From contig NZ_JACBYW010000002.1 of the NCBI RefSeq assembly GCF_013408175.1, positions 186,001-250,000 of the forward strand: DNA of 64,000 bases. Direction: 5' to 3'. Shown in pieces: positions 35,983 to 62,079 of this stretch. This stretch comes from Actinopolyspora biskrensis (GTDB lineage: Bacteria; Actinomycetota; Actinomycetes; Mycobacteriales; Pseudonocardiaceae). Position 1 is the first letter of the stretch. Each line of letters starts with the position of its first letter. The notes beneath the pieces are model-generated. The model had not been told where the DNA came from and did not search any database. It saw only the letters and a list, made by a program, of their open reading frames with translations. The translations under genes were made by a program, and so were the position numbers.

Positions 35983-37641
35983 TTGACCGATTCCGGTACG
36001 CGCGTTCCGCTTCGAGCGGGCGGCGACACCCGTTGGAGCCTGGCGCGCAGGCTGTTCGTCCTCCAGGCGGTGATCGTGATCGTCGTGATCCTGGCCGGCT
36101 CCGGACTGGCCTGGTACAGCGCGCGTGCGCAGAACCAGGAGGCCGCGCGCGGCGAGGTCCGTGCCGTGGCGAAAACCCTGGCGGGGATGCCCGCCCTGCG
36201 GTCCGCTCTGGACGGTGCGGATCCGAGTGACCGGCTTCAACCCCTGGCGGAGAGGACGGCCTCCCAAACGGGGGTCGACTTCGTGACGATCATGAGCAAG
36301 GAGGGAATCCGCTACACCCATCCGGATCCGAGCAGGATCGGCGAGCGTTTCTGGGGGCACATCGAGCCCGCGGTGCGCGGGAACACCTTCACCGAGACCT
36401 ACGCGGGGACCCTGGGGCCTTCCGTGCGGGCGGTGGCGCCCGTGCTCTCCCCCGCGGGGAGGGTGACGGCGCTCGTCAGCGTCGGGATCAGGGTCCGGGT
36501 GCTCACCAGGCAGCTGCAGGACCAGCTACGTGCTCTGTTGCTGGTCGCGGGGCTGGCGCTGCTGTTCGGCGGGCTGGCGACCTACCTGGTCAGCGTACGC
36601 ATGCGCCGGTACACCCACGGTCTTTCCCCGGCGGCGCTGAGCAGGGTGCACGAGTACCACGAGGCGATCCTGCACGCCGTGCGCGAGGGACTGCTGCTGG
36701 TCTCTCCCCGCGGTGTGGTGACCCTGTGCAACGACGGGGCAGCCGTGCTGCTGGGACTGGATCCGGCGCTGACGGAGGGCAGGCGTGTCGACGATCTCGG
36801 GCTGCCCGACTCCTTGGCAGCGGTCCTGGGAAGTCGTGCTCCGGTGCGTGACGAGCTGCACCTGAGCGAGGACAGGGTGCTCCTCGTGACCGTCGTCGCC
36901 GCGGGCGGCGGCAACGGGGAGCTCGGCAACGTGGTCACACTGCGGGACCACACCGAGCTCCGCACGTTGAACCGCGAGTTGGACACGCTGCGCGGTTTTT
37001 CGGAGTCGCTGCGTTCGCAGGCCCACGAGTCGGCCAACCGGCTGCACACGATCGTCTCGATGATCGAACTCGGACGTACCGAGCAGGCCGTGGAGTTCGC
37101 GACCTCGGAGCTGCGCACCGCTCAGCAACTCACCGATCGGGTGGTCGGTGCTGTGGAGGAGCCGGTGTTGGCCGCCGTTCTGCTCGGAAAGACCGCCGAA
37201 GCGCGCGAACGCGGGGTCGAGATCGGCATAACCGAGGACACCCGGGTCGACGAGTCGGCTTCGGAGGCCGTGGACCCCCGGGAGCTCGTGACCGTGCTCG
37301 GGAACCTGATCGACAATGCGGTGGAAGCGGTGCTGGCCGCCGGGGCGGGCTCGCCAGCGGTCGACGTGACTCTCCGCGCCGAGGAGGAGGGCCTGCTGGT
37401 CAGGGTGGTCGACAACGGGCCGGGCGTCGATACGGGGACGACGCGTGAGCTGTTCCGCCGTGGCCGCTCGGGCAAGGGCGACGGCAGGGGACTGGGGCTT
37501 GCTCTCGTAGGGCAGAGTGTTCGCCGTCATGGTGGTCACGTCGAGGTGGCCAACGACACCGGCCGAATGCGGGGAGCGGCTTTCACCGCGTGGTTGCCGT
37601 TGGAACCGCTCGCCGGACGGGAGCCGAAGGCGGGAGGATGA
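35983..37641 (+). CDS. Sensor histidine kinase, CitA/DcuS type
   Basis: 552-residue membrane kinase. One helix at about residues 24-46, an extracytoplasmic Cache-like sensor (about 47-180, with GERFWGHIEPAVRGNTFTET), a second helix near 183-205, a PAS domain (EYHEAILHAVREGLLLVSP), then the Spo0B-like dimerisation segment with phospho-acceptor His in SQAHESANRLH. The ATPase has N-box NLIDNAVEAV, G1 VVDNGPGVD and G2 GKGDGRGLGLALVG. It probably senses a carboxylate. TTG at 35983 is chosen for the GGGAGGGATGA before it; only 30 nt separate it from gntP. Confidence 0.92.
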   Translation: MTDSGTRVPLRAGGDTRWSLARRLFVLQAVIVIVVILAGSGLAWYSARAQNQEAARGEVRAVAKTLAGMPALRSALDGADPSDRLQPLAERTASQTGVDFVTIMSKEGIRYTHPDPSRIGERFWGHIEPAVRGNTFTETYAGTLGPSVRAVAPVLSPAGRVTALVSVGIRVRVLTRQLQDQLRALLLVAGLALLFGGLATYLVSVRMRRYTHGLSPAALSRVHEYHEAILHAVREGLLLVSPRGVVTLCNDGAAVLLGLDPALTEGRRVDDLGLPDSLAAVLGSRAPVRDELHLSEDRVLLVTVVAAGGGNGELGNVVTLRDHTELRTLNRELDTLRGFSESLRSQAHESANRLHTIVSMIELGRTEQAVEFATSELRTAQQLTDRVVGAVEEPVLAAVLLGKTAEARERGVEIGITEDTRVDESASEAVDPRELVTVLGNLIDNAVEAVLAAGAGSPAVDVTLRAEEEGLLVRVVDNGPGVDTGTTRELFRRGRSGKGDGRGLGLALVGQSVRRHGGHVEVANDTGRMRGAAFTAWLPLEPLAGREPKAGG

Positions 37642-37642
37642 C

Positions 37643-38323
37643 GTGATCTCGGTCCTGGTGGTGGAGGACGACGAGGTGGCGGGCGAAGCCCACGAGAGCT
37701 GCACGAACAGCGTGAGTGGATTCCGCGTGGTCGGCCGGGTTCGTACCGGTCAGGAGGCCCTGCGGTTCCTCGGCCACACCGCCACGGACCTGGTGCTGCT
37801 CGATCTCCGGTTGCCGGACATGGACGGTCTGCGGGTGAGTCGCACGTTGCGGAGGCAGGCGAGCGAAACCGATGTGATCGCGGTCACCTCGGCTCGTGAT
37901 CTCAGCCGGGTGCGCGAGTCGGTGGCCAGTGGCGTGGTGCAGTACCTGCTCAAACCGTTCACCTTCGCGGCGATGCGGGAGAAACTGGAGAACTACGCCC
38001 GTTTCCGGAGCAGCATTTCCCGGGAGGGGGCCGTCAACGGCCAGCACGAGATAGACCACGCCTTCTCCGCGTTGCGCGACGGCGATCGCCGCGAGCTGCC
38101 CAAGGGGATGGGGGAGCAGACGCTCGAGTCGGTGGTTTCGGCCGTGCGGGAGCTGCCGGAGGGGGGATCGGCCGAGACGGTCGGCCGGTTCAGCGGTGTT
38201 TCCAGGGTGACCGCGCGCAGGTATCTGGAGTACCTGGTCGAGTGCGGCACCGTGTCGCGCGCTCCCCGCTACGGAGGTGTGGGGCGTCCCGAGATGAGTT
38301 ACCGCTGGAACGGGAACTCCTGA
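37643..38323 (+). CDS. Response regulator, CitB/DctR type
   Basis: 226 residues. Receiver domain with acidic pocket VVEDDEVAG, phospho-acceptor Asp54 in LVLLDLRLPDMDG and lysine in QYLLKPFTF; then a C-terminal helix-turn-helix (GGSAETVGRFSGVSRVTARR) of the type in citrate and C4-dicarboxylate regulators. GTG at 37643 follows GGGAGGATGAC and lies one nt after the kinase stop. Likely controls the divergent gntP. Confidence 0.93.
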   Translation: MISVLVVEDDEVAGEAHESCTNSVSGFRVVGRVRTGQEALRFLGHTATDLVLLDLRLPDMDGLRVSRTLRRQASETDVIAVTSARDLSRVRESVASGVVQYLLKPFTFAAMREKLENYARFRSSISREGAVNGQHEIDHAFSALRDGDRRELPKGMGEQTLESVVSAVRELPEGGSAETVGRFSGVSRVTARRYLEYLVECGTVSRAPRYGGVGRPEMSYRWNGNS

Positions 38324-38336
38324 CCGGTGGTGGCCA

Positions 38337-38410
38337 CCGGGGCGCCCGCTCACGAGACCGCGGGGGTTCCCCGGGGCGACTCACCGGGACACGGGCGAGC
38401 GGGAAACCCC
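38337..38410 (-). repeat. Structured post-stop repeat, copy C (truncated)
   Basis: Read on the minus strand it follows the soxR stop by 8 nt. GTTTCCCGCTCG matches copy B, and CGCGGTCTCGTGAGCGGG followed by CGCCCCG matches copy A (39819-39972) with one difference in 25. It lacks the distal arm present in copies A and B. It also fills the gap behind the response-regulator gene. Confidence 0.65.
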
Positions 38411-38418
38411 GACGAGGG

Positions 38419-38880
38419 TCACATCCCTCCCTCGGCCTCGGGGCGCAGCAGCGGTGCGGCTGGACCTTTCTGCGCCATCCGGTCGTCCGGGTTGTACAGC
38501 GAGCAGGTGTTCAACGAGAGGCAACCGCACCCGATGCAGCCGGTGAGCCGGTCGCGCAGTCGCCGCAGCCCGTCGATCCTGGCGTCGAGCTCGTCCCGCC
38601 AGTGCTCCGAGAGCCGTGCCCAGTCGGCCTTGCTGGGGGCGTGGTTCTCCGGGAGCGTGCTCAACGCGTCCGTGATGTCCTCCAGGCTGAGCCCGACTCG
38701 CTGGGCCGCGCGGATGAACGCCAGCCGACGCAGCACCCCGCGCTCGTAACGTCGTTGATTGCCGCTCGTGCGCGTCGAGCTGATCAGCCCGCGGTCCTCG
38801 TAGAACCGAAGTGCCGTCGTCGCGAAACCGCTGCGTTCCGCGACCTCGCCGATGGTCAGTTTTGCGGAGGGGTTCGACAC
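38419..38880 (-). CDS. soxR: Redox-sensing MerR-family regulator SoxR
   Basis: 153 residues. N-terminal MerR winged helix (LTIGEVAERSGFATTALRFY), coiled-coil dimerisation helix, and the [2Fe-2S] cysteine cluster CIGCGCLSLNTCSLYNP near residue 118, diagnostic of SoxR. It is oxidised by redox-cycling compounds or superoxide and then activates target genes. Actinobacterial SoxR usually controls a small set of oxidoreductases and exporters. The GTG start is 6 nt after a TAGGCT hexamer, so the mRNA is probably leaderless. An operator-like dyad lies at 38903-38918. Confidence 0.95.
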   Translation of the reverse strand: MSNPSAKLTIGEVAERSGFATTALRFYEDRGLISSTRTSGNQRRYERGVLRRLAFIRAAQRVGLSLEDITDALSTLPENHAPSKADWARLSEHWRDELDARIDGLRRLRDRLTGCIGCGCLSLNTCSLYNPDDRMAQKGPAAPLLRPEAEGGM

Positions 38881-39604: not shown

Positions 39605-39816
39605 GGACACGCAGGCACGGGTTGATGCGACCTGGAGGAGCCGCACGTGTCGTGGCTTTCGTGCTGTGCCTGGGGATGGTCATCGGCTTCTCCTCGACCT
39701 ACCTCGTGTCGGCGGGCGTGTCCGGTTGGCTCGTGCTGTTCTTCGCGCTGCTGGTGCTGGGGGTTCCGGTGGTGGCGGCGTTGCGCTCGAACGGCCGATC
39801 AGGCGGAGGGGACTGA
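39601..39816 (+). CDS. Small two-helix membrane protein between hisH and hisA
   Basis: 71 residues. A basic N-terminus ([13 protein letters not shown]) leads into two hydrophobic helices, [21 protein letters not shown] and [20 protein letters not shown], with a short charged tail. Its GTG overlaps the hisH stop, so it is translated with the his genes. Small membrane proteins at this place occur in other actinobacterial his operons; no function is established. It is followed at once by structured repeat copy A. Confidence 0.75.
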
Positions 39817-39818
39817 GT

Positions 39819-39972
39819 GAGGTTCTCCGTCTCGGTCGTCGTGGGTGGTCGCGGGACCCCTCGCGGTCTCGTGAGCGGGTGCCCCGACATCGGGTGGTCG
39901 CCTGCACGACGTCGGGACCGTCCTCGCGGGAGCACCACGGGGAACCCGCGGCGGTCCCGGTTGCCGGGGCGG
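39819..39972 (+). repeat. Structured post-stop repeat, copy A
   Basis: It begins 2 nt after the stop of the hisH-linked membrane gene and fills half of the 311-nt gap to hisA. The core from GCGGGTGCCCCGAC to AACCCGCGGCGG aligns with copy B (61751-61913) at roughly nine positions in ten. It holds an outer GCGGGT/ACCCGC pairing and a competing pairing of CCCC (near 39857) with GGGG (near 39938). The remaining 39973-40115 shows no gene. Confidence 0.75.
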
Positions 39973-40115
39973 GGTGTTTCGGTACCGGCAGCGCCGAAGG
40001 AGAGCCCCGGCCCGACCGACGAGCCGAGCGGGGAACTCGATGAGAACCGTTCGTCAGGCTCGAGTGGTCAGCGCCGGCTCCGCGGGGTGTCGTCGTGGCG
40101 GGATACGAGGGGTCG

Positions 40116-52587: not shown

Positions 52588-52695
52588 GACGTACGAGGCG
52601 ACCTGGCTCGGCCCGGTCGTTCCGCGACGGCGGAACGGGGCCTCACAGTTGCGGGACAGCACCGGAGTCACACCGGGTTTCGCTCGTACGGCACC
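52588..52695 (-). ncRNA. Cobalamin riboswitch upstream of btuF-btuC-btuD
   Basis: Read on the minus strand it has GGTGCC, then GAAACCCGGTGTGACTCCGG, GCTGTCCCGCAACTGTGAGG, a GTTCCGC/GCGGAAC hairpin and GAGCCAGGTCGCC, the landmarks of the cobalamin riboswitch including the B12 box. A closing helix CGTACGAG/CTCGTACG joins 52683-52690 with 52590-52597. Cobalamin binding should turn the importer off. Confidence 0.9.
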
Positions 52696-60684: not shown

Positions 60685-60801
60685 TCCCCCCGAAGCGTGG
60701 CGGAACCGGAGTACGCGGTACTGCGGTGCCAGCGCTCTCCGGCATTCCGCGCGCCTCGGGCGAGGGGTGGCGCACACCGATCACGACACGAGGAGCCCGA
60801 A

Positions 60802-61746
60802 GTGACCCGAGCGGCACGGGACGCCGCCGCAGACCCGGCAGGCGCCAGTAGTCAGTCCTCGGTTCCGGTGGACGCCAGCGGAATGCCGCACGGACAGCCT
60901 GTGCTGGACCGTCTGGTCGCGTTGCTGGATCTCGAACCCATCGAGGAGAACATTTTCCGAGGGGTCAGTCCCGCGGAATCACCGGTAAGGGTGTTCGGCG
61001 GCCAGGTGGCCGGGCAGGCCCTCGTGGCGGCCGGGCGGACCGTGCCGTCCGACCGCAGGGTGCACTCCCTGCACGCGTACTTCCTCCGTCCCGGAGATCC
61101 CAGCGTTCCGATCGTCTACGAAGTGGACCGGACACGCGACGGCCGTTCGTTCACCACGCGCCGGGTCGTCGCGGTGCAGCACGGCAAGCCCATATTCTCG
61201 TTGTCCACGTCCTTCCAGGTCGAGGAGGAGGGCATGGACCACTCCGAGCCGATGCCCGAGGTCCCGGCGCCGGAGGAGCTGCCGACCTACGGGGAGCGGA
61301 TCGGTGCCATGGCCGACGAGGTGGGGGGCATGGCCAACCTGCCGCGGCCCGTCGACATGCGTCACGTCACCGAACCGCCGTGGTTGAGTCGCCGGGAGGG
61401 ACCGCGGGACGCCCGCAGCAGAGTGTGGATGCGGGCCGACGGTGAGCTGCCCGACGACGATCTGCTGCACGTCTGCCTGCTGGCCTACGCCTCGGACCTG
61501 ACGCTGCTGGATTCCGTGCTCATCGGGCACGGCGTGTACTGGGGGGTCGACAAGGTCCACGGCGCCAGCCTCGACCACGCCATGTGGTTCCACCGCCGTT
61601 TCCGCGCGGACGAGTGGTTCCTCTACGACTGCAGTTCCCCGAGCGCTTCCGGCGCGCGTGGGCTGGCGACGGGGAACTTCTTCGCCAGGGACGGTTCCCT
61701 GATCGCCACCGTGGTTCAGGAAGGGCTGCTCCGCATGGCGGACTGA
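60802..61746 (+). CDS. tesB: Acyl-CoA thioesterase II (TesB family)
   Basis: 314-residue double-hotdog thioesterase releasing free acid from acyl-CoA. N-terminal hotdog with VFGGQVAGQALVAAGRTVP and HSLHAYFLRPGDPSVPI; C-terminal hotdog with ASDLTLLDSVL, SLDHAMWFHRRFRADEWFLY (catalytic Asp region) and GLATGNFFARDG. GTG at 60802, behind GAGGAG, is preferred over an upstream start at 60697. Structured repeat copy B starts 5 nt after its stop. Confidence 0.94.
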   Translation: MTRAARDAAADPAGASSQSSVPVDASGMPHGQPVLDRLVALLDLEPIEENIFRGVSPAESPVRVFGGQVAGQALVAAGRTVPSDRRVHSLHAYFLRPGDPSVPIVYEVDRTRDGRSFTTRRVVAVQHGKPIFSLSTSFQVEEEGMDHSEPMPEVPAPEELPTYGERIGAMADEVGGMANLPRPVDMRHVTEPPWLSRREGPRDARSRVWMRADGELPDDDLLHVCLLAYASDLTLLDSVLIGHGVYWGVDKVHGASLDHAMWFHRRFRADEWFLYDCSSPSASGARGLATGNFFARDGSLIATVVQEGLLRMAD

Positions 61747-61750
61747 CCGC

Positions 61751-61913
61751 GAGAGTTTCCCGCCTCGGTTAGCGCGGGTGGTTGCGTGGCGGAACCTCTC
61801 GCGGGCTCTCGCTGCGGGTGCCCCGACCTCGGGTAGCCGGCCTACACGACGTCGGGACCGTCCTCGCGAGAGCACCACGAGAGAACCCGCGGCGGCGCCG
61901 ATCACCGGGGCGG
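61751..61913 (+). repeat. Structured post-stop repeat, copy B
   Basis: 163 nt beginning right after the thioesterase stop. CTCTCGCGGGCTCTCG (61796-61811) can pair with CGAGAGCACCACGAGAG (61867-61883). Separately, GCGGGT/ACCCGC and CCCGAC/GTCGGG form a nested stem that competes with it. The rest of the gap (61914-62079) shows no gene. Confidence 0.75.
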
Positions 61914-62079
61914 AATCCCGGCCCTGCCTGCTTCGGAAGAACCGCTCCGGGGCTTTGACACGACGGGAGGCCCGAACCGGCTGCTCGGCGGGATGAATAG
62001 CTCGGCTGATGCGGGTACCGGCACACGAGGCTCCTGTTCGCACGGACTCGGTCGCAGGCCCGCGCCTCGTCGGCACTGC

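Follow-up and report, generated by a model that had tools for sequence, protein, structure and literature searches.

Copies of the repeat in the window

The window, a 64,000-nucleotide stretch of the Actinopolyspora biskrensis genome, contains three sequences, A, B and C, which follow the stop codons of a small hydrophobic reading frame behind hisH, an acyl-CoA thioesterase gene and a MerR-family regulator gene, respectively (Table 1). The genes adjoining the copies are unrelated to one another, and the small reading frame upstream of A has no Pfam match. An earlier note on this DNA had placed a stop codon upstream of each copy, rightly so, as checking of the genes (Pfam) showed. It had also aligned A and B over their whole length; B is an 80% match to A across query positions 5–158, both copies being as described there. 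They lie at the positions given, but the real elements are longer, reaching about 40043 (A) and 61978 (B). The 3' end of A is approximate because it was set by an imperfect inverted repeat common to other copies; in A, an imperfect inverted copy of its own 5' end is located at about 40024–40043. A hairpin like the 3' hairpin of A is present in many other copies.

Covariance model scores are 109.6 bits for A (match 39842–39969) and 130.6 bits for B (match 61780–61910), values that are not independent, as both copies were among the 30 sequences used to build the model. C had been proposed as a third copy; it is a relative of A and B, but a weak one and probably internally deleted, with a score (17.2 bits, E 0.19) that is not significant by itself. 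C occupies exactly the 95 bp that separate two convergent stop codons. Elsewhere in the window, at 52602–52677 on the minus strand, a cobalamin riboswitch scores slightly over the Rfam gathering score.

Table 1. Positions in the window of the three copies, their parts and the adjoining genes.
Feature	Position	Strand	Basis or remark
Response regulator, convergent with the MerR gene	37517..38323	+	
Copy C, probable internally deleted F1 remnant	38324..38418	-	Weak covariance model score
MerR-family regulator (soxR in the earlier note), upstream gene of C	38419..38880	-	
Small hydrophobic reading frame behind hisH, last 63 codons; upstream gene of A	39625..39816	+	
Copy A, full F1 element, about 227 bp	39817..40043	+	Directly behind TGA 39814-39816
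A, conserved core, consensus GGCGGAACC ... AACCCGCGG	39849..39951	+	Covariance model match
A, stem P1, 5' arm (approximate)	39857..39874	+	Consensus structure transferred by eye
A, stem P2, 5' arm	39881..39889	+	Consensus structure transferred by eye
A, stem P2, 3' arm	39909..39917	+	Consensus structure transferred by eye
A, stem P1, 3' arm (approximate)	39925..39942	+	Consensus structure transferred by eye
A, 3' hairpin TTCGG ... CCGAA	39978..39998	+	Sequence; beyond the 3' limit first described for A
Acyl-CoA thioesterase (PF02551), upstream gene of B	60697..61746	+	Start codon approximate
Copy B, full F1 element	61747..61978	+	Directly behind the thioesterase TGA; 3' end approximate

A large family of interspersed repeats

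A and B are members of a large family of interspersed structured repeats, which we call F1. The covariance model search proposed in the earlier note, run with a model built from 30 F1 copies, found many further copies rather than none: at least 141 matches (E ≤ 1e-3) in the 4.95 Mb of the own genome, where the best 150 candidates were scored, so the true number may exceed 141. Blastn, scoring the best 40 of 319 first-look candidates, gave at least 41 matches in this genome, including a very weak one with an E of 4.8. For the congeners, the covariance model matches among the best candidates number at least 119–147 per genome in eight of the nine. The outlier among the ten genomes of the genus is G006, with two covariance model matches and one match to a strict two-anchor pattern; such a near-absence could help to identify the enzyme through a comparison of gene content.

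The strict pattern has matches in 15 of 120 genomes of the bacterial family, in 7 of 46 genera, while its reversed control has none in all 120. Among the stretches from named genomes (80 listed of at least 111), F1 is found in Actinopolyspora, Saccharopolyspora, Halopolyspora and Amycolatopsis, part of a group of soil-dwelling and halophilic bacteria; genome G021 is presumably that of Saccharopolyspora erythraea. Rfam gave no match on F1, either at the gathering score in the window or at E ≤ 1 in 18 loci, and the two matches in the search of the loci, TPP (L361) and a sub-threshold sul1 (L154), lie outside it. Viral contigs searched by exact pattern and phages and plasmids searched by blastn with copy B contained no match. 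In the literature, most subscription papers being outside the scope of the search, we found no report of the family, nor is it described in the parts consulted of PMC2817692, PMC2267715, PMC12548453 and PMC3610266.

A hairpin kept by compensating changes

The sense strand of F1 is predicted to fold as one long interrupted hairpin, the element being about 230 bp long. In order, the hairpin has a stem P0 (GCGG/CCGC), a covarying stem P1, an internal loop, a covarying stem P2 and, in many copies, an apical GRGUAG...CUACRC motif. Copies of the own genome alone are too uniform for a test of pairing (covariation term 0.04, almost nil), and other genera were therefore brought in. With 22 sequences from five genomes, 94.8% of the cells for the 29 proposed pairs are paired, compared to 81.2% in shuffled alignments and 42–57% when one side is slid; two-sided changes occupy 79 cells, compared to 25.4 in shuffles. 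On all five pairing measures the real alignment exceeds every one of 500 shuffles, in a test where the structure derives from that same alignment and the shuffles do not preserve relatedness. Alignment A3 left out L144, L147, L148, L153 and L156 of 20 loci and used 7 of the 83 own copies.

Counting over 266 distinct copies needs no multiple alignment. Pairs 4–6 of P1 are formed in 92–94% of these copies, versus 46–51% when partners are dealt randomly, and use up to six pair types; pairs 1–3 are nearly invariant and pairs 7–9 pair less well (57–75% versus 30–58% with random partners). L031–L066 were left out of these counts and of those for the apical motif. The F1 hairpin is thus kept by compensating changes across genera. 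A stem that keeps pairing while its bases change (CCCC with GGGG in A, CTCT with AGAG in B) had been noticed earlier from the window; it holds in the 266 copies, and covariation goes beyond chance across genera.

At six P1 positions, read on the sense strand, G.T or T.G occurs in 54 cells versus 9 for A.C or C.A, with 48 other mismatches; for the 51 distinct arm pairs, these numbers are 15, 6 and 34. The apical motif, as searched, is present in 108 of the 266 copies and in 106 of those it combines GGGTAG with CTACAC or GAGTAG with CTACGC. The G.T excess and this coupled change favour selection on the folded sense strand, be it RNA or single-stranded DNA.

Single copies differ in how well they fold. 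The folding energy z is −5.1 for L145, a copy from S. erythraea, and −3.1 for B, but A (−1.0) and C (−1.3) do not fold unusually well alone, and the minimum-energy fold of A is unlike the consensus. A fifth piece, from L222, covers only part of a copy and is not informative on this point. Two mutually exclusive pairings had been described for A and B. The CCCGA/TCGGG pairing can be read, by eye, in Actinopolyspora copies but is absent from the Saccharopolyspora copies examined, and is therefore not a conserved switch. The attenuator once suggested is not supported on this ground, given also the unrelated neighbours in the window and the result of a simple scan for intrinsic terminators, in which no GC hairpin with a run of T behind it was found around A or B.

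Position relative to stop codons

Genes were called with a simple GC3 heuristic. The upstream gene is in the sense of the repeat for 61 of the 83 own copies, antisense for 16 and uncalled for 6. The neighbours form convergent pairs in 30 cases, sense co-directional pairs in 27, antisense co-directional pairs in 11 and divergent pairs in 3, the rest being incomplete. Where the upstream gene is sense, the core starts 28–60 nt behind its stop codon in 53 of 61 copies; A is counted as a miss because the small reading frame behind hisH was not called. The same range holds 23 of 27 copies from named Actinopolyspora, 16 of 30 from named Saccharopolyspora and 7 of 11 from G022, all with a sense upstream gene (counted by hand, copies 400 bp or less from the end of a locus being dropped).

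In 1.6 Mb of the congener G005, 51 of 58 copies have a sense upstream gene, and in 43 of these 51 the core starts within the same 28–60 nt, compared to 13.3 expected for random placement in the copy's own gap. None of 100,000 simulations reaches 43, although this null ignores the loss of insertions near promoters and terminators, so part of the excess may be due to selection. Six of 64 G005 copies lie inside called genes, probably through errors of the caller; they were left out of the orientation and 43/51 counts and kept in the stop-codon count (44/56 there). Some F1 copies lie away from the position behind a sense gene's stop. The first nucleotides behind the stop vary between copies, which places the F1 end about 0–15 nt from the stop with no single fixed base. 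The preference for stop codons may have one of three causes: selection may favour the place where an insert is least harmful, the element may be needed at the mRNA 3' end, or insertion may truly be targeted.

Further repeats were seen beside F1. A palindrome, CGATTTCGCGAGAAAT(C/T)G, recurs downstream of it in Actinopolyspora (L240, L241, L243, L250, L251, L254 and L265), and in Saccharopolyspora dendranthemae both L271 and L294 have another repeat, with CCCAGTTTTAGTC, after the F1 copy.

A role for F1 at the mRNA 3' end is possible, judging from its sense orientation behind stops and its conserved sense-strand fold. Taken as a full explanation, F1 would be a functional 3' untranslated RNA element, its hairpin ending transcription, stabilising the mRNA 3' end or binding a protein, and copies, however they had spread, would be kept only where transcribed just behind a stop. 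We find this doubtful. It agrees with the sense orientation (61 of the 77 own copies whose upstream gene was called, as well as the G005 copies), with the use of all three stop codons, and with the G.T excess and coupled apical change. It is at odds with the copies that lie elsewhere, the unrelated neighbours in the window and the scan without a T-tailed terminator at A or B; furthermore, orthologous genes in congeners do without a copy, and the direction of replication should be irrelevant in convergent gene pairs.

A second repeat family, F2

Another structured repeat family, F2, has a similar hairpin and an apical GAGTAG..CTACGC motif. It is found behind stop codons like F1 and joined with F1 in mosaics. 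There are 30 copies in the 1.6 Mb of G005, 28 of them outside called genes, and 11 of the 19 with a sense upstream gene start 35–45 nt behind the stop (placement background: a uniform model). F2 loci include the G005 stretches L157–L196 and L374–L413, and the G005 sites that match L121 and L077.

Presence and absence in relatives

F1 copies are lineage-specific. Alignments read by eye show that the element is absent from the site of A in nine of nine congeners; in G005, which is 95% identical next door, just a short 5' piece is left. No congener of the nine has a full copy at the site of B, where G005 contains F2-type sequence and a piece resembling the 3' part of F1. At the site of C, related sequence is present in G005 and G001 and in none of the other seven.

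On the 1.6 Mb of G005, 43 of the 83 own copies could be placed. Fifteen of these align straight through and are common to both species, hence much of the F1 set is not recent; the other 28 are absent, incomplete, rearranged or disrupted in some other way. L002, L104 and L126 have clean empty sites in G005, with the flanks joining at the stop codon, while for L004 and L008 the copy is missing as well, with blurred junctions. At L121 and L077, a composite of F1 and F2 is found in inverted order and orientation between the two species, like bacterial mosaic elements. High copy number, insertions missing in relatives and mosaic rearrangements thus support the MITE- or REP-like repeat that had been suggested among other readings.

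A classical MITE would be moved as double strand by a transposase acting on terminal inverted repeats, here imperfect and seen in one subfamily (5' CCGATGTTTTCCG, 3' CGGAAAACATCGG), with a 2–3 bp target duplication. The 3' terminal motif has 117 matches with up to two mismatches, compared to 5 for the reversed control, and the junctions of L002 (GA) and L126 (AG) fit such a duplication, although no duplication fits them equally. The end sequences differ between subfamilies and genera, however, while the core and the distance to the stop are kept. In the 1.6 Mb of G005, three inward-facing pairs of TIR1 ends, which may include an autonomous version of the element, were found, 1.6–3.9 kb apart, and no pair (up to two mismatches) is closer than 1.6 kb. 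A direction bias such as that described below would not be expected either, and we consider a classical MITE unlikely.

Orientation relative to replication

Of the 36 pattern copies in G022, 34 are directed away from position 0, whichever half of the chromosome they lie in. With a slightly different pattern, the same is true of 15 of 15 copies in G021 and 11 of 13 in G084, genomes in which the strict two-anchor pattern counted 19 and 23 copies. In convergent gene pairs an element follows a gene whichever way it points, so that replication direction can be separated from gene direction; there, F1 points with replication in 9 of 9, 9 of 10 and 8 of 8 cases in the three genomes, or 26 of 27, a count that took in 15 of the 36 G022 copies. 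The bias is weaker in the genus of the window: in G005, 16 of 23 copies in convergent pairs and 42 of 58 overall point with replication, versus 690 of 1159 gene calls on the leading strand. The origin was taken to be at position 0 or at the point where the copies change sign (about 240 kb in G005), rather than being placed by dnaA.

Of the 36 copies in G022, 30 are in the chromosome half closest to position 0, which suggests that copies are enriched near the replication origin.

A possible mode of insertion

Three features together, a sense strand that folds, clean insertion and an orientation that follows the chromosome halves, suggest insertion as a single strand into the lagging-strand template. 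The reading we put first, to which we give an even chance, is that F1 is REP/BIME-like and non-autonomous, and that it moves in the form of a folded single strand. Copies would be exposed as such on the lagging-strand template and inserted by some enzyme, much as in IS200/IS605 or RAYT transposition. Once inserted, F1 would form the 3' untranslated end of the transcript from the upstream gene; there it would be nearly harmless and may protect the mRNA or terminate it. If true, the family of Saccharopolyspora erythraea, the erythromycin producer, gets its own counterpart of the REP/BIME repeats.

For the enzyme, the genomes of the genus were searched for Y1 transposases (PF01797), and no mobilising gene for F1 was found. 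Y1 transposases match in eight of the ten genomes; G001 and G008, with at least 123 and at least 119 F1 matches, have none, which argues against Y1 as the mobiliser. The only Y1 match of the own genome, G000:C5:89381-89734 (L420), has an F1 copy some 170 bp away, at C5:89083-89212.

The preference for stop codons is left unexplained by single-strand insertion. At 59 F1 and F2 sites, the stop codon is TGA in 42, TAG in 12 and TAA in 5, versus 948, 160 and 51 in the background. TAG and TAA together (17/59 versus 211/1159) are at least as frequent as in the background, and TGA is slightly depleted, with a p of 0.04 that rests on a uniform model. TGA was rejected as a target motif on these counts. 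A MIRU-type repeat that targets a TGA motif is very improbable for the same reason, even if several well-preserved copies are, by eye, bracketed by TGA; L126, a candidate fresh insertion, sits behind TAG.

Insertion of F1 and F2 might depend on two things at once, the ends of reading frames (any stop, about 0–15 nt downstream, in sense) and the direction in which the replication fork moves. Site choice would then involve recognition of translation termination or of the mRNA 3' end, and the element would be integrated as a folded single strand. We offer this extension of the single-strand reading tentatively and doubt that it is correct. Species that are 95–96% identical at the loci of A, B and C differ in their copies, so the insertion rule and the missing enzyme are directly testable.

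Comparison with known repeat systems

We know of no fixed distance to a stop codon or direction bias in ERIC/RU-type repeats. These repeats of enterobacteria (see PMC2759123) are like F1 in being mobile, 100–170 bp long and present in many intergenic regions.

The MIRUs of mycobacteria, hosts from the same bacterial order as those of F1, insert at DTGA sites. They share with F1 that they are short mobile repeats at gene boundaries. The parts consulted of PMC12548453 describe MIRUs as apparently mobile repeats that are inserted at start codons, with translational coupling. F1, on the other hand, has a pronounced structure and is found behind each of the three stop codons without favouring TGA.

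In transposition of the IS200/IS605 type, the strand is folded and insertion is biased to the lagging-strand template. F1 would be alike in both respects, but has neither a linked Y1 gene nor a defined target sequence here.

With the REP/BIME repeats and their RAYT transposases, as far as the parts consulted of PMC2817692 describe them, F1 has in common the many intergenic hairpin units, the mosaics of inverted order (L121 and L077) and a proposed single-strand transposition, while its unit is several times longer and contains two covarying stems. It is not a short palindrome led by GTAG; in F1, GTAG is found only inside the apical motif, facing CTAC (108 of 266 copies). G001 and G008 contain F1 without a Y1 match, and the placement of F1 is tied to stop codons. 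F1 thus works most like the REP/BIME repeats, yet differs from them in transposase and motif. What distinguishes it is strong structural conservation combined with a rule of placement directly behind any stop codon, which to our knowledge has no equal among bacterial repeats.
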